A model generated the notes under the pieces. That model was not told where the DNA came from. It saw only the letters and a list, made by a program, of their open reading frames with translations, and did not search any database. The translations under genes were made by a program, and so were the position numbers. 41,251 bases of DNA, from the NCBI GenBank assembly GCA_947631405.1, contig CANRLC010000018.1, forward strand, positions 1-41,251, written 5' to 3'. Within the stretch, counting starts at the first letter, position 1. The number at the start of each line of letters is the position of its first letter. This stretch comes from an uncultured Clostridia bacterium. Lineage in GTDB: Bacteria > Bacillota > Clostridia > Christensenellales > Aristaeellaceae. Below are positions 2,834-39,974 of this stretch, one piece after another.

Positions 2834-4576
2834 ATGAACGAACCGCTCGCAACCGACCGGGCGCTGCCGGGCTATTTGATGGACGCGCCCGCACGCGGGC
2901 ATATCTACGGCACGCTCTCCTACAACCGGCACAGCAAGTGCTGGACGATCAAGGGCGAGCCGTGCGTGATCGAGCTGGCGACGCGCCTGTTCCCGGGCAG
3001 CGCGCGGCGGCGCGGGGAGGCGCGCTTCACGGCGAACCGGCGCATCATCGGCGACGTCAACTGGCTGATGCTGCGCTATCCGCTGGAGGTCGCCGCGCGC
3101 GACCGCGCGCTGTGGGCGACGGCGCTTTCACAGGCGCGGGAGCACGCCATCGCGCGCGAGCGGGCGGCAAACCTGCCGCTGCGCAGCACGCCGCCGGAGG
3201 GGACGTTCTGCGGGACGCTGCGCGACTTCCAGAAGGAGGGGCTGTCGTTCCTGCTGGGCAATCCGCGCGCGCTGCTGGCGGATGAGATGGGTCTGGGCAA
3301 GACGGTGCAGGCGCTCGCGTGTCTGGCGAGCACGGGCGAACTGCCCGCGCTGCTGGTGGTGCCCCCGCACCTGACGCGCAACTGGGTGTCGGAGACGCGG
3401 CGGTTTCTGCGCGTGAACGGGCGGGAGCCGCGCGTTTACACGCTCACGGGGCTGAAGCCCTACCCGCTGCCGGAGGCGGACGTGTACATCATCCACTATC
3501 TGCTGCTGCGCGGCTGGAAGGAGGCGCTGCCGCGGATGGGCTTTCGCGCGGTGGTCTTCGACGAGATTCAGGAGCTGCGCCGCACGGGAACCGAGAAGTA
3601 TTCGGCGGCGAGCCTGCTGGCCGAGGGCTGCGAGCGGGTGATCGGGCTGTCGGGCACGCCGATCTACAACCGGGGCGCGGAGATCTGGAACGTGGTGAAC
3701 ATCCTCGACATGCACTGCCTGGGCGACTGGGAGAGCTTCACGCGCCAGTGGTGCGACGGCTACGGCAACCACATCGTGCGCGACCCCGCGCTGCTGGGCG
3801 CGCATCTGCGGCGCGAAGGGCTGATGCTGCGCAGAACGAAGGCCGAAGTGCTGCGCGAGCTGCCGCCCAAGCGGCGTCTGGTGCAGGAGATCGACCTCGA
3901 CGACCGGGTCTACCGCGAGCTGATGCGCCCGGTGATGGAGCTGCTGGGCAGCCTGAGCGCGCTGCACCCGGAGGCGCGCGAGCGCGCGCTGCTGGAGGAG
4001 CAGATCGGGCGCGGCGAGCGGCAGGCGACGGGCGTGGCGAAGGCGCCGTTCGTGGCGGCATTCGTGCGCGCGCTGCTGGATAACGGCGAGCGCGTGCTGC
4101 TCTTCGCGCATCACCACGCGGTGATGGACGCCTACCGCGCGGAGCTTTCCGCGTATCGCCCGGCGTTCATCACGGGCCGGGAGACGACGCAGCAGAAGGA
4201 CGCGTCCGTCGCGCGCTTCATGGGCGGGGGAACGGATCTGTGCGTGATCTCGCTGCGCTCGGCGGCGGGCCTCAATTTGCAGCGGGCGAGCTGCGTGGTC
4301 TTTGGCGAACTGGACTGGTCGCCCGCCGTCCATTCGCAGGCGGAGGATCGCGCGCACCGCATCGGGCAGGAGGACTCGATCCTGTGCTACTATCTGGTCG
4401 CGCCGCAGGGATCCGACCGCGACATGCAGGACGCGCTGGGCCTCAAGGTGAGCCAGTTCGTGGGATTGATGGGCGACCGCGCGCCGGATATGGCCAGCGT
4501 GCAGTCCTCGCAGCTCGCGGCGCGGGCGCACATCGGGCGGCTGCTCGCGCAGTACGAGGCGCAGCAAAAGAAGTGA
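2834..4576 (+). CDS. SNF2-family DNA helicase/translocase
   Basis: A 580-residue superfamily 2 ATPase of the SNF2 type, expected to move along double-stranded DNA using ATP. Visible motifs are Q/I (FQKEGLSFLL, then DEMGLGKT at about 150-157), motif Ia (LLVVPPHLTRNW), motif II as DEIQ at about 242-245, motif III (LSGTP), the second lobe (VLLFAHHHAVM), motif V (SLRSAAGLNLQ) and motif VI (AEDRAHRIGQ at about 505-513). The first 130 residues look like the N-terminal region of SMARCAL1/phage-type SNF2 proteins. There is no fused nuclease domain; the RecB-like protein encoded just upstream may supply it. It is shorter than HepA/RapA (over 900 residues). The ABC exporter starts 28 bases downstream and may be in the same transcript. 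Confidence 0.9.
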   Translation: MNEPLATDRALPGYLMDAPARGHIYGTLSYNRHSKCWTIKGEPCVIELATRLFPGSARRRGEARFTANRRIIGDVNWLMLRYPLEVAARDRALWATALSQAREHAIARERAANLPLRSTPPEGTFCGTLRDFQKEGLSFLLGNPRALLADEMGLGKTVQALACLASTGELPALLVVPPHLTRNWVSETRRFLRVNGREPRVYTLTGLKPYPLPEADVYIIHYLLLRGWKEALPRMGFRAVVFDEIQELRRTGTEKYSAASLLAEGCERVIGLSGTPIYNRGAEIWNVVNILDMHCLGDWESFTRQWCDGYGNHIVRDPALLGAHLRREGLMLRRTKAEVLRELPPKRRLVQEIDLDDRVYRELMRPVMELLGSLSALHPEARERALLEEQIGRGERQATGVAKAPFVAAFVRALLDNGERVLLFAHHHAVMDAYRAELSAYRPAFITGRETTQQKDASVARFMGGGTDLCVISLRSAAGLNLQRASCVVFGELDWSPAVHSQAEDRAHRIGQEDSILCYYLVAPQGSDRDMQDALGLKVSQFVGLMGDRAPDMASVQSSQLAARAHIGRLLAQYEAQQKK

Positions 4577-17601: not shown

Positions 17602-19206
17602 CTAGGCGTTTCGGGACGCGGTTTCGGCAAGCGTTAAGCCCTCGTTGTGCTCTATGGCCCAGCGGATCGACCACTCGTTTTCAAACAGGATGACGTCGCG
17701 GTCGCGGCCGTCCTGCGCGAGGGAGGAGGTGCTGGAGAGCTTGAGGTTTTCCAGCGGGCAGGGGGATTGCACGACCCAGCGCACGAAGCGGTAGGGCAGC
17801 GCCTCGCGGCGCACCTCGGCGTTATACTCGGTGCGCAGGCGGTGCTCCAGCACCTCGAATTGCAGCACGCCCACGACGCCGACGATGATCTCCTCGAAGC
17901 CGACGCCGGGCCGCTTGAAGGTCTGGATGGCGCCCTCCTCGCTCAGCTGCAGCACGCCTTTGACGAACGCCTTGCGCTTTAAGCTATCCACGCTCGTGAC
18001 GCGGGCGAAGAACTCCGGCGCGAACACGGGGATGCCCGCGAAGCGCCGATGCTTTCCGGTGCATAGCGTGTCGCCCAGCGCGAAGACGCCGGGGTCGAAC
18101 AGGCCGATGATGTCGCCGGGATAGGCGTCCTCGACGCTCTCGCGCTCGTCGGCCATGAACTGCTGCGGCTGCTTGAGCTGCAGCGGCTTGTTCGTGCCGC
18201 TGTGCCAGACGGTCATGCCCTTGGTGAACACGCCGGAGCAGACGCGCATGAAGGCGAGTCTGTCGCGGTGGGCGGGGTTCATGTTGGCCTGTATCTTGAA
18301 GATAAAGCCTGAAAAGTCCGGGTCGGTCGGCTCGACGGGGCCTTGGTCGCTCTCGCGCGGCGCGGGCGGCGTCGAGTATTGCAAAAAGCGGGTGAGGAAC
18401 GGCTCCACGCCGAAATTGGTGATCGCGGAGCCGAAGAACATCGGCGTCAATTCGCCCGCGCGCACCTGCTCAAGATCGAACGCGTCGCCCGCGACGTCCA
18501 GCAGGTCGATCTCGTCGAGCAGGCGTCCATGCAGCCGCTCGCCGAGCAGCTCCGGCAGGCGCGGATCGTCCAGCGGCACGTCCTGCTTTTCCACGCGCGT
18601 GCGCCCGTGATCGCCCGTCTCGTAGAGCTCGACCATGCGCGTATCGCGGTGGTAGACGCCCTTGAAGTCGCCGTCCGTGCCGATGGGCCAGTTGACCGGG
18701 CAGGCGCGGATGCCGAGCACCTGTTCCATCTCTTCCATGAGGGAGAACGGGTCCTTGCTCGCGCGATCCATCTTGTTGACGAAGGTGAAGATGGGGATGT
18801 TGCGCAGGCGGCAGACCTTGAACAGCTTGATCGTCTGCGCCTCGACGCCCTTGGCGGCGTCGATCAGCATCACGGCGCTGTCCGCCGCGACGAGCACGCG
18901 ATAGGTGTCCTCGGAGAAATCCTGATGGCCCGGCGTGTCGAGGATGTTGATGTGGAAGCCGTCGAACTCGAATTGCATCGCCGAGGAGGTGACCGAGATG
19001 CCGCGCTGCTTCTCGATCTCCATCCAGTCGCTGGTGGCGTGCTTGTCGCTCTTGCGCGCCTTGACCGCGCCCGCGGTGCGGATCGCGCCGGAGTAGAGGA
19101 GAAGCTTTTCGGTCAGCGTCGTCTTGCCCGCGTCCGGGTGGGAGATGATCGCAAACGTCCTGCGCCGCGCGGTCTCCCTGACGAGGGCATCGTTGTTTTC
19201 CGGCAT
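17602..19206 (-). CDS. prfC: Peptide chain release factor 3
   Basis: A 534-residue GTPase that removes RF1/RF2 from the ribosome after termination. G1 is SHPDAGKTTLTEKLL, then KQRGISVTSS (switch I), DTPGHQDFSEDTYR (G3), FVNKMDR (G4) and the RF3-specific C-terminal parts (GVVGVLQFEVLEHRLRTEY). Start ATG 19206 has GGAGGAGACGAC directly upstream; in-frame codons further upstream cross the promoter and are not coding. Transcription starts from TTTTCA-N17-TATACT (19253-19281). The promoter and leader are nearly duplicated in front of the ABC operon at 22396. Confidence 0.96.
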   Translation of the reverse strand: MPENNDALVRETARRRTFAIISHPDAGKTTLTEKLLLYSGAIRTAGAVKARKSDKHATSDWMEIEKQRGISVTSSAMQFEFDGFHINILDTPGHQDFSEDTYRVLVAADSAVMLIDAAKGVEAQTIKLFKVCRLRNIPIFTFVNKMDRASKDPFSLMEEMEQVLGIRACPVNWPIGTDGDFKGVYHRDTRMVELYETGDHGRTRVEKQDVPLDDPRLPELLGERLHGRLLDEIDLLDVAGDAFDLEQVRAGELTPMFFGSAITNFGVEPFLTRFLQYSTPPAPRESDQGPVEPTDPDFSGFIFKIQANMNPAHRDRLAFMRVCSGVFTKGMTVWHSGTNKPLQLKQPQQFMADERESVEDAYPGDIIGLFDPGVFALGDTLCTGKHRRFAGIPVFAPEFFARVTSVDSLKRKAFVKGVLQLSEEGAIQTFKRPGVGFEEIIVGVVGVLQFEVLEHRLRTEYNAEVRREALPYRFVRWVVQSPCPLENLKLSSTSSLAQDGRDRDVILFENEWSIRWAIEHNEGLTLAETASRNA

Positions 19207-19281: not shown

Positions 19282-19347
19282 GCGCAAAACTGTCCAAAAA
19301 CTTCGGCACGGGGCGCGGGAGGATGCCAAAGGGGAGATCAAAAAGGT

Positions 19348-19371
19348 CTTCCTCCCCCGAAAGGGAGGAAG
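19348..19371 (-). terminator. Hairpin upstream of prfC
   Basis: CTTCCTCCC (19348-19356) pairs with GGGAGGAAG (19363-19371). It lies after the ABC permease gene and its repeat element, and before the prfC promoter, so it probably ends ABC-operon transcripts. Confidence 0.45.
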
Positions 19372-19388
19372 AATGCGGCGCATCGCCT

Positions 19389-19579
19389 ATACTATTCTCA
19401 AATCAAATCATATTCATGGTGAACCCGCCCGGGATCGCTTCGCTTCCGGGCTGCATTTTACAATCGCTTCGCGATTTGGGGAACGTTGGGGCTACCGCCC
19501 CAAACCCTGTCTGGGGACATTGTCCCCAGACCCCATCCTGTGCTTCGCACCATATGATGGTTTTATCTGAGAAAAGTAT
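19389..19579 (-). repeat. Stop-codon-docked structured repeat, copy 1
   Basis: A 191-bp unit with imperfect terminal inverted repeats of 23 bp (ATACTATTCTCAAATCAAAT at the left, ATACTTTTCTCAGATAAAAC from the right end reversed; 19 of 23 match). It holds a chain of hairpins: GCCCGG...CCGGGC, AATCGC-TTC-GCGATT, TTGGGGC-TACC-GCCCCAA, a 9-bp stem TCTGGGGAC/GTCCCCAGA at 19510-19530, and a nested stem CCATC...GTGC-TTC-GCAC...GATGG. The right end, at 19579, is the last A of the ABC permease stop codon TAA. A second copy is at 39130-39414 and a miniature at 28748-28790. It encodes no protein, so it is MITE-like or a structured 3' UTR module. Confidence 0.8.
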
Positions 19580-21711
19580 TATACCTCCTCCCGCAGGGCG
19601 CTCGCGAGATCGATGGAGACGGCGCGGCGGGCGGCGAGCGCGTAGGCCAGCTGCGCACAGAAGAACAGGAACAGAAGCAAGCACGCGACGGGCCGAACGG
19701 GGGCGACGGCCCAATAATCCGCCCAGCGCATCCCTGCGCTGCGCATCAGCGGCACGAGCGCTGCCGCCGCGCCGAGCAGGGCAAGCAGAGCGGGCCGCGC
19801 GACGAGCAGCGCGCCTTCCAGCGCGAGGGAGACGCGCAGCTCTTGCGGCGTCATTCCCAGAGCCAGCAGGCGCGAAAACTCCCCCGCGCGCGTGGCCGAA
19901 AAGCCGAGCGCCGCAAAGAACACGCTCGCCATCCCGACCAGCGCGGGCAGCGCGCAGAAGGCCGACAGCGCGAGATCGTAGGCGCGCAGGATACGCGCGT
20001 TTTGCGCCTCCAGAAGCGGGCGCTGTTCGAGGGCCGCGTCCGGCAGCAGCGCCGCAAGTTCGGCGGCAAGCGCGCCGGTTTCCCCGGCGCTCTCGGCGAC
20101 GGCGCAGAGCGTCACCGCGTCCTGCGGCGCGCGCGGCACGCCCAAGGCGGCGTACAGCGCGGCGGATACGACGATTACGGGCGCGTCGCCGTCGTATTCC
20201 TCGCGCAGCGGCGGCGCGGTCTCGCAAAGCCCGGCCACGGGCAGATCGAGCGCAAGCCCCCGCAGCTCGACGCGCAGCGATTTTGCGTCCCCGCGCAGGC
20301 AGGAAACATAGGTTGGGTCGTAAAACGGGCTGTGCAGGCTATCCCGGACGGCGTTGACGATCACCGCGCCGCCCGCGCCCGCAGAGCCGGTCTCCCGCGC
20401 GTATTCCGAAAAGCTTTCGTCGTCCAGCACGAGCAGCGGCGCATGCAGCGCAAAGACGCCGTCCTCCGCTTGCGCGCCCGTGACGGCGGGCAGGCCGCCC
20501 GCGGCGAGCAGCGCGTCGCTTTGCGCGTCCCACGGCAGGCGCAAAAGGGCGTTGTCCACGCGCTGGTAGGCGGTCAGGCGCGCCGCACCGGGGAGCGCGC
20601 GCAGGCCGTCCGGCTCGGCGAAGGCGGGCAGCGTTTCGCCTTCCACGCGCGCCATCACGTCCCACACGGAGGCGTAGCGCTCGAAGTAGGTGCGCCGGGT
20701 GCTCAGGCCGCCGAGCGCCAGCAGCGAGGAGAAAAACGAAAAGGAAAACAGCGCGAGGGCAAAGGCAAACGTGGCCGCGCGCAGCGCGTTACGGTTTGCA
20801 TAGCGCGCACGCGAGGCGAGCAGCCCCAAAGGCCCAAACAGCCTCTCGCAGAGCGTCGCGCGGGGGAGCCGCTCGGGGCCGAGAAGGCGCGCGCCCGCGA
20901 CGGTCTCGGCCAAGGAGAAGCGGGCGAGGCGGCGCGCGGCCAAGCGCGCGCCGAGCAGCAGCGTGAGCAGGATGAGCGCCGCCGCGGCGAGCAGCGCCGG
21001 TGGATGGAGCGCGAAGCGGGCGGGCGTTTCGATGCCGGCGCTCTGCGACAGCCGGGCGGACGCGCCGACCACCGCGGCGGAAAGCGCGACGCCGCACGCA
21101 AGCCCGACCGCGGCCGGAGGCAGGCACAGGAGAAGCGCGTCGCGCACGAGCAGGCGGCGAAGCTGGCGGGGCGTTGCGCCGAGGCTTTCCAGCAGCGCGA
21201 GCGGGCGCGCGGCGTTGGATGCGCAGACCAGCAGCGCCGCGCGCAGCAGCGCGGCGAGCGCGGCGGCGCACAGCAGCGCGACCGCGCCCAACGACAGCAG
21301 CAAAGCGGACGGCTGCGGATCGGAGGGGTCGAGGACGAGCAGCGCCGAGAGCAGCGCGTCGTGCGCGACCGCCGCGTCCGCGGGCAGGCCCAGCGCGGCG
21401 GCGATCTGCCGTCCCTCGACGTAGGCGCGCGAGGCGGGGGAAAAGCGAATATCGATAAAGCCGCCGCCCTCGCCGGGCACGGCGGAGGAGACGTGCGCGA
21501 AGCCGCGAATCCGATCGAGCGTCGCCTCGTCCGGCTCCGTCATCAGGCGGATATGCCAGTCGCCCTCCTCCTGCGCGACGCGCATCAGGGCGTCGCCCCA
21601 CGCGTTTGCGAACAGGCTGACGATGAGGCCGAGCATCAGTGCGGCAAACAGGCTCACGGCGGCGAGGGTCGCGCGCTCGGCGCGGCGCTCTCCAAGCAGA
21701 CGGATGCGCAC
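19579..21711 (-). CDS. ABC transporter permease, FtsX/MacB-type
   Basis: A 710-residue membrane protein. An N-terminal helix (about 13-38) is followed by a short extracytoplasmic part, then a cluster of three or four helices around 135-275 (first FtsX-like unit). A helix at about 305-330 comes next, then a large extracytoplasmic domain (about 335-555), and a second FtsX-like unit of three helices at about 565-700. This is the duplicated FtsX layout of type VII ABC systems that act on envelope proteins, lipids or peptides rather than carrying solutes through a channel. It starts at GTG 21711, 4 bases after the ATPase stop, with GCGGGGGTGA as ribosome site. Its stop codon TAA forms the first base of a repeat element. 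Substrate unknown. Confidence 0.85.
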   Translation of the reverse strand: MRIRLLGERRAERATLAAVSLFAALMLGLIVSLFANAWGDALMRVAQEEGDWHIRLMTEPDEATLDRIRGFAHVSSAVPGEGGGFIDIRFSPASRAYVEGRQIAAALGLPADAAVAHDALLSALLVLDPSDPQPSALLLSLGAVALLCAAALAALLRAALLVCASNAARPLALLESLGATPRQLRRLLVRDALLLCLPPAAVGLACGVALSAAVVGASARLSQSAGIETPARFALHPPALLAAAALILLTLLLGARLAARRLARFSLAETVAGARLLGPERLPRATLCERLFGPLGLLASRARYANRNALRAATFAFALALFSFSFFSSLLALGGLSTRRTYFERYASVWDVMARVEGETLPAFAEPDGLRALPGAARLTAYQRVDNALLRLPWDAQSDALLAAGGLPAVTGAQAEDGVFALHAPLLVLDDESFSEYARETGSAGAGGAVIVNAVRDSLHSPFYDPTYVSCLRGDAKSLRVELRGLALDLPVAGLCETAPPLREEYDGDAPVIVVSAALYAALGVPRAPQDAVTLCAVAESAGETGALAAELAALLPDAALEQRPLLEAQNARILRAYDLALSAFCALPALVGMASVFFAALGFSATRAGEFSRLLALGMTPQELRVSLALEGALLVARPALLALLGAAAALVPLMRSAGMRWADYWAVAPVRPVACLLLFLFFCAQLAYALAARRAVSIDLASALREEV

Positions 21712-25616: not shown

Positions 25617-25635
25617 CGCCTTGACAGATGTACAG

Positions 25636-25812
25636 TAGTCACAGGTGCGCAGCGATGCGCAGCGCAAAGCGCTACGGGAAGCGGATGAAAGCTCCGCACT
25701 ATCCCAGTAACCGTGAAGCGGACAAGGGAACATGCGCCCTGCGGCGCGGCCACTGACGGCAGTCGGGAAGGCGTTCCTGCGGAGGATGCCAAGTCGGGAG
25801 ACCTGCCTGTGA
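25636..25812 (+). ncRNA. Cobalamin riboswitch
   Basis: The leader has the order of conserved cobalamin-aptamer pieces: ACAGGTGC near the 5' end, CTACGGGAA, GGATGAAAGCTCC, GGCCACTG, TCGGGAAGGC and the B12 box GCCAAGTCGGGAGACCTGCC at 25788-25807. It lies between a strong promoter and btuF. When adenosylcobalamin or another corrinoid is bound, expression of the importer should fall. Boundaries are approximate because the outer P1 pairing was set by eye. Confidence 0.93.
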
Positions 25813-25855
25813 TCGGGATGGATGGCTTCCCCTGGGGTTGGGACAGCGACACGGC

Positions 25856-27993: not shown

Positions 27994-28748
27994 ATCTAAC
28001 GGCGAAGGACATCCGCGTGCGCGCGGGCGGAAAGGAGATCGTCCGCGGGGCGTCGTTTGCGCTCACGGACGGCGATTGGCTGATGATCGTCGGGCCGAAC
28101 GGCGCGGGGAAGACGACGCTCGTGCGCGCGCTGTGCGGCGGCGTCCCCTGCGAGGGCGAGGCGACGATCGACGGCGAGGCGCTTAGCGCGATGCGTCCGG
28201 CCCTGCGCGCGCGGCGCGTGGGCCTGCTCGACCAGCAGACGGGCGTGACGTATGCCTTCTCGGTCGAGGAGGTCGTGCGGCTGGGGCGCTACGCCTATCG
28301 CGGCGGCGCGTTCGGGCGGGGCGACGCGGACGGCGAGCGTCTCGTGGAGGAAGCGCTTCATGCGACGGGGCTTTATGACAAGCGCCGCCAGAGCATGCTG
28401 ACGCTCTCCGGCGGCGAGCGCCAGCGCGCGTTTCTGGCGCAAGCGCTCTGTCAGGATCCCAGCGTGCTCATCCTCGACGAGCCGGGGAACCACCTCGATC
28501 TGGCGTATCAAAGGCAGCTCTACGCGCTGCTGGACGATTGGCGGCGGCGGCCCGGGAAGGCCGTGATCTCCGTGATGCACGATCTGGCGCTGGCGCGGCG
28601 CTACGGCACGCGCGTGCTGCTGATGGAGCGCGGCGCGGGCAGCTTTGGAACGCCGCGCGAGGTGCTGACGCGCGAGGCGCTTTCGCGCGCGTTTGGGATG
28701 GACGTCTGCGCGTGGATGCGGGATGTGTATGGAGCATGGGAAGCGTAA
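27990..28748 (+). CDS. btuD: Corrinoid ABC transporter ATPase BtuD
   Basis: A 252-residue ATPase of the FepC/BtuD class. It shows Walker A GPNGAGKTT, a Q-loop region GLLDQQTGVTYAFSVEEVV, signature LSGGERQRAFLAQAL, Walker B VLILDEPGNHLD with Gly-Asn in place of the more usual Thr-Asn, D-loop HLDLAYQ and H-loop VMHDLALA. It drives B12 uptake through BtuC. It starts at ATG 27990, overlapping btuC. Its stop codon TAA (28746-28748) forms the first base of a 43-bp miniature of the structured repeat, which also ends the convergent beta-glucosidase gene. Confidence 0.93.
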   Translation: MNLTAKDIRVRAGGKEIVRGASFALTDGDWLMIVGPNGAGKTTLVRALCGGVPCEGEATIDGEALSAMRPALRARRVGLLDQQTGVTYAFSVEEVVRLGRYAYRGGAFGRGDADGERLVEEALHATGLYDKRRQSMLTLSGGERQRAFLAQALCQDPSVLILDEPGNHLDLAYQRQLYALLDDWRRRPGKAVISVMHDLALARRYGTRVLLMERGAGSFGTPREVLTREALSRAFGMDVCAWMRDVYGAWEA

Positions 28749-28790
28749 TGCTTTTCAGGATGGGGTCTGGGGACATTGTCCCCAGACCCC
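28748..28790. repeat. Miniature stop-codon-docked repeat / bidirectional terminator
   Basis: From the last A of the btuD stop codon the sequence is ATGCTTTTCAGGATGGG, matching the right end of the large repeat (ATACTTTTC then CAGGATGGGG). A 13-bp stem GGGGTCTGGGGAC/GTCCCCAGACCCC (28762-28774 and 28778-28790) follows. The stem's last base is the last base of the beta-glucosidase stop codon TAG on the other strand. It fills the entire gap between two convergent genes and should end transcription both ways. Confidence 0.75.
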
Positions 28791-30151
28791 TACAGGTTTT
28801 CCCCGTTGCTCTCGATCACGGAGCGATACCATTCGGCGCTATCCTTCACGGTGCGCTTCTGGGTCGCGTAATCGACGTAGATCAGGCCAAAGCGCTCGTT
28901 GTAGCCCTGACCCCACTCGAAGTTGTCCATCAGCGACCAGACGAAGTAGCCCGCCGCGTCCACGCCGTCCTCGGCGGCGCGCTTGTAGGCGCGCAGGTAG
29001 CGGCGCATGTAGTCCACGCGGTTTGGGTCGTGTACCTTGCCGTCCAGCGAGACGGCGTCGTGGCAGGACATGCCGTTTTCCGTGATGAAGAACGGCGTCT
29101 TGTAGCGCTCGTACAGGAAGCGCGGTCCCCAGTAGAGCGCGTCCGGCGCGATCGTCCACTGGATCGCCGTCTTCGGCGCGCCGGGCGGGGGCGGCACCTG
29201 CTCCCAGCCGCGCGCGTTGTCCGCCGCGCGAACGACGTGCCCGCTGTAGATGTTCTGCGCGTAGAACTCCAGCGGCTGATGGATGACTGCAAGGTCGCCC
29301 TCCCAGCCGCGCGGCAGGTATTGCCCGTAGAGCGACAGGCCCTGCTCGGGATAGTGCCCCAGCATCGCGGGATCGCTCCACCACGACACGTTTCGCGCCC
29401 AAAGCTGCGGATCGTCGGGCACTTCAAAGTAGCAGCGGCGCGCCGCCTCGACGTCCGCAGGGCTTTCGCTCGCGGGGATGCAGGCGTCTGCGCAGGGCGC
29501 GTAGCCCACGCGCGCGCCGTGTACCGTCTCGTGCAGCATGCGCGCAGAGAGGCCGTGGGCGAGCAGCACGTTGTGCGCCATCGGCACGACGGTGCTCGGC
29601 GGCAGGCGAACGCCCGGGGCCTGCACGCCAAAGGCGTAGCCCATGCCGATAAAGCACTGCGGCTCGTTGAAGGTGATGAAGTCCTTCACCCGATCGCCGT
29701 AGCGCTTGGCGATCAGTTCTGCGTAGTCGAGGAACCACTTGGGGCTGTCCGGGTTTTCCCAGCCGCCGCGCGCTTGCAGGGCGCAGGGATAATCCCAGTG
29801 GAACAGCGTCGCAAACGGGCGAATGCCGTGGGCGAGCAGCTCGTCGATCAGCCGGTCGTAGAAGTCGAGGCCCTTTTCGTTCGCCGCGCCCGTGCCCTCG
29901 GGCAGAAGACGGGGCCACGCGATGGAGAAGCGATAGTTGCGGATGCCCATCCCCGCCATCAGCGCGACGTCCTCGCGGTAGCGGTGATAGTGGTCGCAGG
30001 CGACGTCGCCCGTGTGATCCATGAAGACCTTGCCCGGCGTGTGCGCAAAGCGATCCCAGACGGATTCGCCGCGCCCATCCTCCTGCGCCGCGCCCTCGAT
30101 CTGGTAGGACGAGGTCGCCGCGCCCCAGATGAAGTCCTTGCGGAAGCTCAT
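28790..30151 (-). CDS. Family 1 beta-glucosidase (GH1)
   Basis: A 453-residue cytoplasmic glycoside hydrolase without a signal peptide, hydrolysing beta-glucosides such as cellobiose to glucose. GH1 marks are FIWGAATSSYQIEGA at the N terminus, RFSIAWPRLLPEG, the acid/base Glu163 in TFNEPQ, the nucleophile Glu358 in ITENG, and SLMDNFEWGQGYNERFGL. No 6-phosphate-specific signature was evident, and import here is by an ABC system, so unphosphorylated sugar is the likely substrate. ATG 30151 has GGGAGG upstream; longer in-frame extensions cross the promoter TTGCCA-N17-TATACT. It is part of the beta-glucoside region to its right. Confidence 0.93.
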   Translation of the reverse strand: MSFRKDFIWGAATSSYQIEGAAQEDGRGESVWDRFAHTPGKVFMDHTGDVACDHYHRYREDVALMAGMGIRNYRFSIAWPRLLPEGTGAANEKGLDFYDRLIDELLAHGIRPFATLFHWDYPCALQARGGWENPDSPKWFLDYAELIAKRYGDRVKDFITFNEPQCFIGMGYAFGVQAPGVRLPPSTVVPMAHNVLLAHGLSARMLHETVHGARVGYAPCADACIPASESPADVEAARRCYFEVPDDPQLWARNVSWWSDPAMLGHYPEQGLSLYGQYLPRGWEGDLAVIHQPLEFYAQNIYSGHVVRAADNARGWEQVPPPPGAPKTAIQWTIAPDALYWGPRFLYERYKTPFFITENGMSCHDAVSLDGKVHDPNRVDYMRRYLRAYKRAAEDGVDAAGYFVWSLMDNFEWGQGYNERFGLIYVDYATQKRTVKDSAEWYRSVIESNGENL

Positions 30152-39091: not shown

Positions 39092-39129
39092 CCAGACGTC
39101 CTCCTCGTTTCTTCTATTTCTGTTACCTC

Positions 39130-39414
39130 ATACTATCCTCAAATCAAACCATATTCATGGTGAACCCGCCCGGGACTTCGCTACCGGGCTACTTTTTGTA
39201 ATCGCTTCGCGATTTGGGGGTACGTTGGGGCTACCGATCCGGGGAACTCGCATAGTCGCGAGCTGCGCTCGCTCATTGCGATTCCCCGCGTTCCGCCTGC
39301 CTGCTTCCGCCACAGGCGGCGGCAGGCTTCAGCGCCAAACCCTGTCTGGGGACATTGTCCCCAGACCCCATCCTGTGCTTCGCACCATAGGATGGTTTTA
39401 TCTGAGAAAAGTAT
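39130..39414 (-). repeat. Stop-codon-docked structured repeat, copy 2 with 98-bp insert
   Basis: The same terminal inverted repeats (ATACTATCCTC... and ...GAGAAAAGTAT) and hairpins as copy 1. Base changes are compatible with pairing: the last stem is a perfect CCATCCT/AGGATGG here. A segment of about 98 bp (39237-39334) interrupts the loop of the TTGGGGC hairpin and itself forms stems (GGGGAA...TTCCCC; GCCTGCC...GGCAGGC). The 9-bp stem recurs at 39345-39365. The right end, 39414, is the last A of the DUF3793 stop codon TGA. Confidence 0.8.
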
Positions 39415-39974
39415 CATGCCGACGCGGGGACGGCCAGCGCCCGCAGCGGCACGCCCGCGCCGTAGAGCCTGCGATACGCCCGCGTGCAGCGCTCATAGCG
39501 TGCGAAGAGCCGCTGCGCCTCGCTTGCGTCCCCGTAGCATTTCCAGCAGCCGCAGCACACGCAGTCGCGGCCCCCGTGCTCGATAAAGCCGATCACGTCC
39601 CGCAGCGGATAGCCTAGAAACAGGCCGATCTCGTGCGGAAACTCGCCGCCCCGCGCCACGCGCGCAAACAGCGTACACAGCGCATCCTCCACGCGCAGGG
39701 AGCGATAGCCCCTCCGGCGCAAAAATGCCGCCTCCGGTTCGCTGCACAGCATCCGCTGCACGAGCGCCTCGCGGTAGAGATAGCACAGCGCGCGCCTGCG
39801 CGCGATCGGCACGATGCGCAGCGCCAGCCCGCGCGCTCGCAGCAGGCGGGAGAGGCGCGCGGCGTCGGCGTAGAGGCGATCCCATCGCGGCGAGACGAGC
39901 GTGAACAGGCTCGCCGCCTTCAGCCGCGCCAGCGTCGGCGCGCAGTGCTCCACGAGCGCGGGTTCCAGTTCCAT
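39414..39974 (-). CDS. DUF3793 family protein
   Basis: A 186-residue cytoplasmic protein of a clostridial family of unknown function. Family marks are HCAPTLARLKAASLFTL near the N terminus, FPHEIGLFLGYPLRDVIGFI and the Cys-rich CVCCGCWKCYGD near the C terminus. In Clostridia it is often found beside flavodoxin and iron-uptake genes, as here. CGGAGG precedes ATG 39974. A palindrome GTTAG-N6-CTAAT lies 17-32 bases upstream of the start and a perfect version GTTAG-N6-CTAAC at 40113-40128, so control by a DtxR/Fur-type metal repressor is likely (inference). The family is also rich in Arg here, reflecting the GC bias. Confidence 0.87.
   Translation of the reverse strand: MELEPALVEHCAPTLARLKAASLFTLVSPRWDRLYADAARLSRLLRARGLALRIVPIARRRALCYLYREALVQRMLCSEPEAAFLRRRGYRSLRVEDALCTLFARVARGGEFPHEIGLFLGYPLRDVIGFIEHGGRDCVCCGCWKCYGDASEAQRLFARYERCTRAYRRLYGAGVPLRALAVPASA

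Follow-up and report, generated by a model that had tools for sequence, protein, structure and literature searches.

Hairpin-rich, MITE-like elements of uncultured Clostridia, often placed directly behind stop codons

Why should copies of one small repeat abut the stop codons of unrelated genes? The question is raised by a stretch of 41,251 nucleotides from an uncultured Clostridia bacterium (positions 1 to 41,251 of contig CANRLC010000018.1, assembly GCA_947631405.1), hereafter the window, in which an earlier note had described three elements lying directly behind stop codons, with the first A of each being the final A of the stop. All three were located at these places, and the shared A is indeed the last letter of the stop codon. 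The element itself starts with the T that follows, which shifts the true bounds of the two full copies to 19390-19578 and 39131-39413. The features are as follows.

19390..19578, minus strand: full element, short form, 189 bp, its head docked on the permease gene
19579..19581, minus strand: TAA stop of the FtsX-type permease gene, also the head-side target copy
19387..19389, minus strand: tail-side target copy of the short form, now TAG when read with the element, two of its three bases agreeing with TAA
19557..19578, minus strand: head terminal inverted repeat of the short form
19390..19411, minus strand: tail terminal inverted repeat of the short form
19509..19531, minus strand: central hairpin (stem II) of the short form
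39131..39413, minus strand: full element, long form, 283 bp, its head docked on the DUF3793 gene
39414..39416, minus strand: TGA stop of the DUF3793 gene, also the head-side target copy
39128..39130, minus strand: tail-side target copy TGA of the long form, an exact duplication
39237..39333, no strand assigned: extra 97-bp module within the long form, boundaries set by eye
28749..28789, plus strand: remnant, 41 bp, the head TGCTTTTC joined to the central hairpin
28746..28748, plus strand: TAA stop of the ABC ATPase gene, adjoining the remnant
28790..28792, minus strand: TAG stop of the converging GH1 gene, at the far end of the remnant

The outer 23 bases of both full copies form inverted repeats with four mismatches in each, matching the 23-bp imperfect terminal repeats of the earlier description. 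For the family as a whole, the ends are inverted repeats of about 20 bp (TACTTTTCTCAG.../...GAGAATAGTA), and an element end together with its target reads TNA-TACTNTTCTCA; the docked copy at locus L018 reads TAG-TACTTTTC. The 41-bp remnant is an internally deleted copy, eight head bases being fused to the central hairpin, and it occupies the entire gap between the converging ABC ATPase (assigned by Pfam) and GH1 genes. Its hairpin loop carries ATT in place of AAT, as though it had been flipped, and like the deleted copies at L031, L060, and L081 it amounts nearly to the central hairpin alone, all of these still being found beside stop codons. Stretches similar to the 97-bp module occur in 36 fetched loci, and inside the elements of relatives (L144, L167, and L176 among the loci) the module is found facing either way, much as would be expected of one small repeat that inserts into another. 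Among the surroundings, the gene behind the short copy (17602-19206) carries release factor 3 domains, for which no connection to docking is claimed, and a cobalamin riboswitch (25626-25824) lies upstream of three plus-strand genes ending with the ABC ATPase gene. In an Rfam search of the window at the gathering threshold, just this riboswitch and a tRNA were found, and no curated RNA family matched the element.

The earlier note had offered either a mobile element or a lineage-specific 3' UTR or terminator module, and had proposed looking for a target duplication, which was found. In a fresh family of nearly identical 195-bp elements from a genome of the same genus (G026), an exact 3-bp TNA repeat flanks 25/25 scored copies (TCA 9, TAA 8, TGA 4, and TTA 4), and a second family in that genome has the exact duplication in 4/6 copies; a diverged G026 copy (L097) is without it and fails the stricter end pattern used for the 25-copy count. 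In the window's genome, the duplication is exact in 18 of the 43 older copies with both ends, the long window copy having TCA on the plus strand on both sides (TGA when read with the element). Its absence in the remaining 25, including the match of two bases in three at the short window copy (TTA/CTA on the plus strand, TAA/TAG with the element), is attributed to age. In a length test in which many copies were counted in both orientations, exact direct matches peaked at length three with 30/68 rows (shuffle mean 8.9, maximum 19) and numbered 1, 0, and 0 at lengths 4, 5, and 6; the duplication signal is thus specific to length three.

Element-free relatives of a docked locus were found as well. 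The DUF3793 gene is present in 20/29 genomes, and the same sequence behind it in relatives, which the earlier note had set against its own reading, was absent within 300 nt in 19/19 relatives having the gene. Seven of these 19 hold the family elsewhere, and the absence is weak evidence in the other twelve because their genomes lack any family match. Moreover, the gene after DUF3793 begins, as read by eye, like the window's flavodoxin gene beyond the element in seven of the 19. Since DUF3793 orthologs and a flavodoxin-like neighbour thus occur without the element, it appears to have inserted into a conserved gene pair, a comparison made at the level of genes, these relatives being too diverged to display a single-TNA empty site. 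The stop of the window's DUF3793 gene falls at the stop position of the orthologs; for the permease protein, a single match covered most of the length, at 39% identity.

A BLAST search of the window's genome (2.28 Mb in 68 contigs, 94% complete) with the short form yielded at least 43 matches, of which three are short (40/154 first-look candidates scored); the genome has the central hairpin at 92 places (up to two mismatches) and the head pattern at 54 (up to three mismatches; at least two are tail ends). Given that a reversed-pattern control gave 0 places and that 36/65 scored heads lie exactly on stops, the head pattern is not a matter of chance. Full scored copies measure 181 to 363 bp, too short to encode a transposase, and the copies of this genome diverge by about 11% from their consensus. 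Among the 60 genomes searched, 17 gave matches (the window's own included), 16 of them in the genus and one outside. When genome contigs were scanned for degenerate ends, 52 stretches were recovered, 33 of them from one MAG, CAMFCQ01 (which is G026), and the others chiefly from MAGs that carry the labels Clostridia, Clostridiales, Oscillospiraceae, or Ruminococcaceae; 18 of the non-CAMFCQ01 stretches were checked for end pairs, and the single-ended matches L193 and L195 are probably chance. The scans for family ends in viral contigs gave 0 matches. In other MAGs, L171, L177, L186, L190, and L205 have similar ends with very different interiors, as a wider set of TNA-flanked small elements. In short, a genus of uncultured Clostridia carries a hairpin-rich family, about 180 to 360 bp long in its full copies, that shows these features of a MITE: short and non-coding, with terminal inverted repeats, a target duplication of fixed length, and a high copy number.

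MITEs can outlive the partner that moves them. Searches for an autonomous partner with PF01609 and PF05598 (seven genomes) and with PF00665 and PF13586 (five genomes) gave 7, 5, 4, and 3 matches, respectively, none of which was bounded by family ends in the fetched flanks, though in draft genomes this is weak evidence. An IS5-type transposase beside two G026 copies was rejected as the partner, as it has different ends.

How general is the docking on stop codons? With genes called by a codon-usage gene caller trained on the fetched stretches, 36/65 scored heads adjoin a called gene's stop codon exactly, or 38/65 when one base is allowed for small indels. After two heads (L016 plus and L035 minus) were dropped as the other ends of already listed copies, there remained 63 scored copies, 37 of them docked by the head (35 exactly, two with one-base indels), 17 no more than 80 nt downstream of a stop on the same strand, and nine elsewhere. 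L010, for which the head and tail consensus tied, was left out of the counts, though docked. Only three copies (L016, L041, and L066) are docked by the tail. The neighbouring genes converge at 28 of the 63 copies, are tandem in the sense direction at 19 and in the antisense direction at four, and are divergent at none, with 12 copies having no called gene on the tail side; element-free gene pairs of the same stretches were tandem in 97 and 94 cases, divergent in 44, and converging in 29. Orientation is therefore biased, both for head- against tail-docked copies (37 vs 3, P = 2e-8) and for tandem sense against antisense copies (19 vs 4, P = 0.003). In a looser set drawn from relatives and the named MAGs, 7/21 end pairs were docked, six of them by the head; at least four of the 21 pairs are probably due to chance (L185 at 381, and L193 three times).

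The 35 exactly docked stops comprise 20 TAA, 14 TGA, and one TAG, against 96, 185, and 26, respectively, for 307 other stops. That the element supplies the stop codon as a rule was considered and rejected: the stop lies outside the element and varies among TAA, TGA, and TAG, and that of DUF3793 matches its orthologs. Separately, two frames were seen to end within an element, at L055 (651 codons with the stop at +16, not accepted by the gene caller) and at L033 (the copy near 3051, with a deleted head); both use the element's own TAA, a route by which the repeat could alter protein ends. As for the flanks, the G+C fractions at positions -5 and -4 are 0.31/0.71 for docked sites, 0.24/0.76 for fresh sites, 0.46/0.67 for other stops, and 0.43/0.50 for the undocked sites of the window's genome, docked and fresh sites both favouring A/T at -5 and G/C at -4.

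How much of this docking needs explaining depends on the TNA sites that are open to the element. Two nulls were built on our home-made gene caller, with eroded remnants left unmasked. In the TNA null, which takes oriented sites in intergenic DNA and at stops, optionally weighted by the flank preference of fresh sites, stops make up 7.5% of the open oriented sites, or 10.5% when weighted, as compared with the 37/63 docked copies seen (P = 1e-20). In the strict null, limited to the stop plus 80 nt, 35% docking is expected, or 43% when weighted, and 37/54 (69%) was seen (P = 1e-4 against the weighted share). Hence the target rule together with survival behind genes explains most of the docking peak and leaves a modest excess. 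The suggestion that the element targets stop codons therefore goes too far. Docking in the window's genome does exceed both nulls, but the sites used are TNA, a class of four triplets that includes TAA and TGA, and the fresh family is not significantly enriched at stops.

We propose that the family consists of non-autonomous, MITE-like transposable elements that are moved by a DDE-type transposase acting in trans, use TNA as the target, are lost from genes and promoters, and are retained where they serve as sense-strand 3' hairpins, a reading to which we assign a probability of about 0.72. Here, the trans-acting enzyme, probably a DDE transposase, would make a 3-base staggered cut at TNA, from which the duplication would follow. 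TAA and TGA stops are themselves TNA sites, and an insertion there would spare both the frame and the stop and would leave a second stop copy on the far side; the gene would keep its end because the stop codon is what gets duplicated. With insertions in coding DNA or promoters presumably lost, the survivors would be those behind genes, where the stop codon would be the first harmless TNA. In the window's genome, the surplus right at the stop and the single preferred direction would then most likely reflect retention of copies that act as a putative sense-strand 3' hairpin of the docked gene, a hairpin that might protect the 3' end of the mRNA or serve in attenuation.

Alternatively, terminating ribosomes, release factors, or transcription termination might guide the transposase to the ends of coding sequences. 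Such targeting would account for docking above the strict null in the window's genome, for the head facing the gene in 37/40 docked copies, and for docked copies in relatives with diverged interiors too. In addition, docked and undocked copies are equally far from the consensus (medians 0.116 and 0.110, P = 0.88), which does not favour slow filtering; retention predicts that docked copies are older, and the equal divergence counts against it. The freshest insertions, however, say otherwise. In G026, with both families counted, 4/31 copies are docked, which does not differ significantly from the weighted null (P = 0.16) or in the strict test (P = 0.82) and differs from the window's genome (P = 2e-5); one more copy in G026 abuts the stop of a frame of 165 codons, which the gene caller did not accept. 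Insignificant docking in a fresh family argues against a stop-reading transposase. Moreover, when the 25 fresh duplications are read on the head strand, 12 have the form TRA and 13 the form TYA, so that transposition shows neither a strand nor a stop preference, and these two observations together point to retention over targeting, which we consider unlikely. More doubtful still is its boldest form, in which transposition linked to the termination of translation or of transcription would deliver the element head-first to the stop of expressed genes, with the stop as the duplicated target and the element becoming a structured 3' UTR. If true, such coupling would amount to a stop-codon-safe spread of a mobile element in a dense genome.

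The hairpins bear on the retention reading. As RNA of the gene's strand, both full copies in the window are much more stable than shuffled sequences (z -6.2 and -7.0), and a comparison of the two strands in 29 copies of the window's genome favours the sense strand in 23. An alignment of 13 of 25 sequences from several species, picked for clean ends, was used to examine 16 of the 40 pairs predicted by RNAalifold, taken from outside the inverted ends and the misaligned centre. The 16 pairs, in four well-aligned helices, were formed in 98% of cells, and changes on both sides were found in 20 cells as compared with 6.9 in shuffles (0/500 as high) and 0-1 for slid partners. These changes represent few events, because they fall largely on one split, that between the window's own genome and its relatives, and the covariation term of RNAalifold is small (-1.24 of -30.95). 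From the alignment, then, the stems appear to have been kept by compensatory changes, with few independent events. Of the 92 central hairpins, 78 lay in fetched stretches. A gene on the same strand precedes 66 of these 78, and 38 of the 66 begin 30-49 nt behind its stop. Among 32 hairpins without a recognised head, several retain a stop codon just ahead of the remnant. The fold and the hairpin positions fit retention as a putative 3' hairpin.

Sense-strand hairpins right behind genes, many of them at a similar distance, would also fit a 3' UTR or terminator module that is specific to the lineage and was passed down together with its genes. Yet the host genes are unrelated, the target is duplicated, and the relatives of the DUF3793 locus are element-free, seven of them with a flavodoxin-like next gene. 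A role as intrinsic terminator was likewise rejected for the short copy: a search for an intrinsic terminator (a hairpin with a T-run) found no terminator-like site within 19390-19578, such sites sitting beyond the element at 19347-19373. The hairpin at 19347-19373 lies just past the short copy's tail, so that the element may have come to stand between the permease gene and the terminator of that gene. We hold an inherited module to be highly improbable and take it as refuted for the element's origin, though it may describe a later use. Of the two options in the earlier note, it is thus the mobile element that stands, given the inverted ends, the 3-bp duplication, the many copies, and the element-free DUF3793 orthologs.

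A less easily dismissed account, to which we grant a real if minor chance, holds that the target rule and the loss of harmful copies suffice for a functionless element, with the residual excess arising from unmodelled features of the sites. It is helped by the 35-43% docking expected from TNA and a location behind genes alone, and by the flank preference that docked sites share with fresh ones. Still, it leaves unexplained why both orientation biases exist when fresh insertions are strand-neutral, why the structure would be kept by compensatory changes, and why the undocked sites of the same genome lack the flank preference. Retention as a putative 3' hairpin remains our preferred reading.

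On this reading, a duplicated target that contains stop codons would give a mobile element a simple route into gene-dense bacterial genomes, operons included, that leaves the genes intact. The family also offers a testable system for asking whether repeats such as REP, BOX, and MITE come to lie behind genes through targeting, through selection against harm, or through use as 3' hairpins, one genus having fresh and old families side by side.

With respect to known systems, a group II intron is reportedly inserted in the stop codon of an Azotobacter groEL gene, which resembles the present case in its stop-codon insertion and differs in splicing and in being much longer. The IS1031 group of the IS5 family makes a 3-bp TNA duplication, the same in target length and sequence as found here. 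We do not file the element under this group: the duplication fits, but no IS5-type transposase was found between the ends, nor an IS1031-group transposase with ends like those of the present family, and the likeness rests on the target, not on end sequences. The bacterial MITEs RUP, Correia, and MITEAba12 are described as short, non-coding, and mainly intergenic, with inverted ends, a target duplication, and many copies (PMC2229807, PMC6382973, PMC10969869), all of which holds for the present family. Set against those descriptions, it differs in its 3-bp TNA target, its G+C-rich chain of hairpins, and the lack of a partner transposase in our searches, and more than half of its scored copies in the window's genome are head-docked on a stop.

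The earlier note knew of no described family with this placement, which can be upheld only in part. Our search of open-licence papers found no report of a stop codon duplicated as the target of a small element, but the placement is not wholly unprecedented, given that GTAG REPs and pneumococcal BOX repeats can supply the stops of adjacent genes (PMC3733652, PMC3049150). REPs, including the GTAG-tagged ones, are 20-40 bp palindromes behind genes, mostly in unidirectional or convergent gaps, with some ends supplying a TAG stop (PMC3733652). The present family is like them in its placement behind genes, its unidirectional and convergent gaps, its palindromic character, and its association with stop codons. 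It is unlike them in its size of about 180-360 bp, its inverted ends, its TNA duplication, and a stop codon that lies outside the element, and it is accordingly not a REP in the sense of a 20-40 bp palindrome without long inverted ends. In one genome of Streptococcus pneumoniae, 36 genes run into a BOX and terminate at a stop codon within it (PMC3049150); where BOX supplies the stop, in the present family it is the host's own stop that is the target and gets duplicated.
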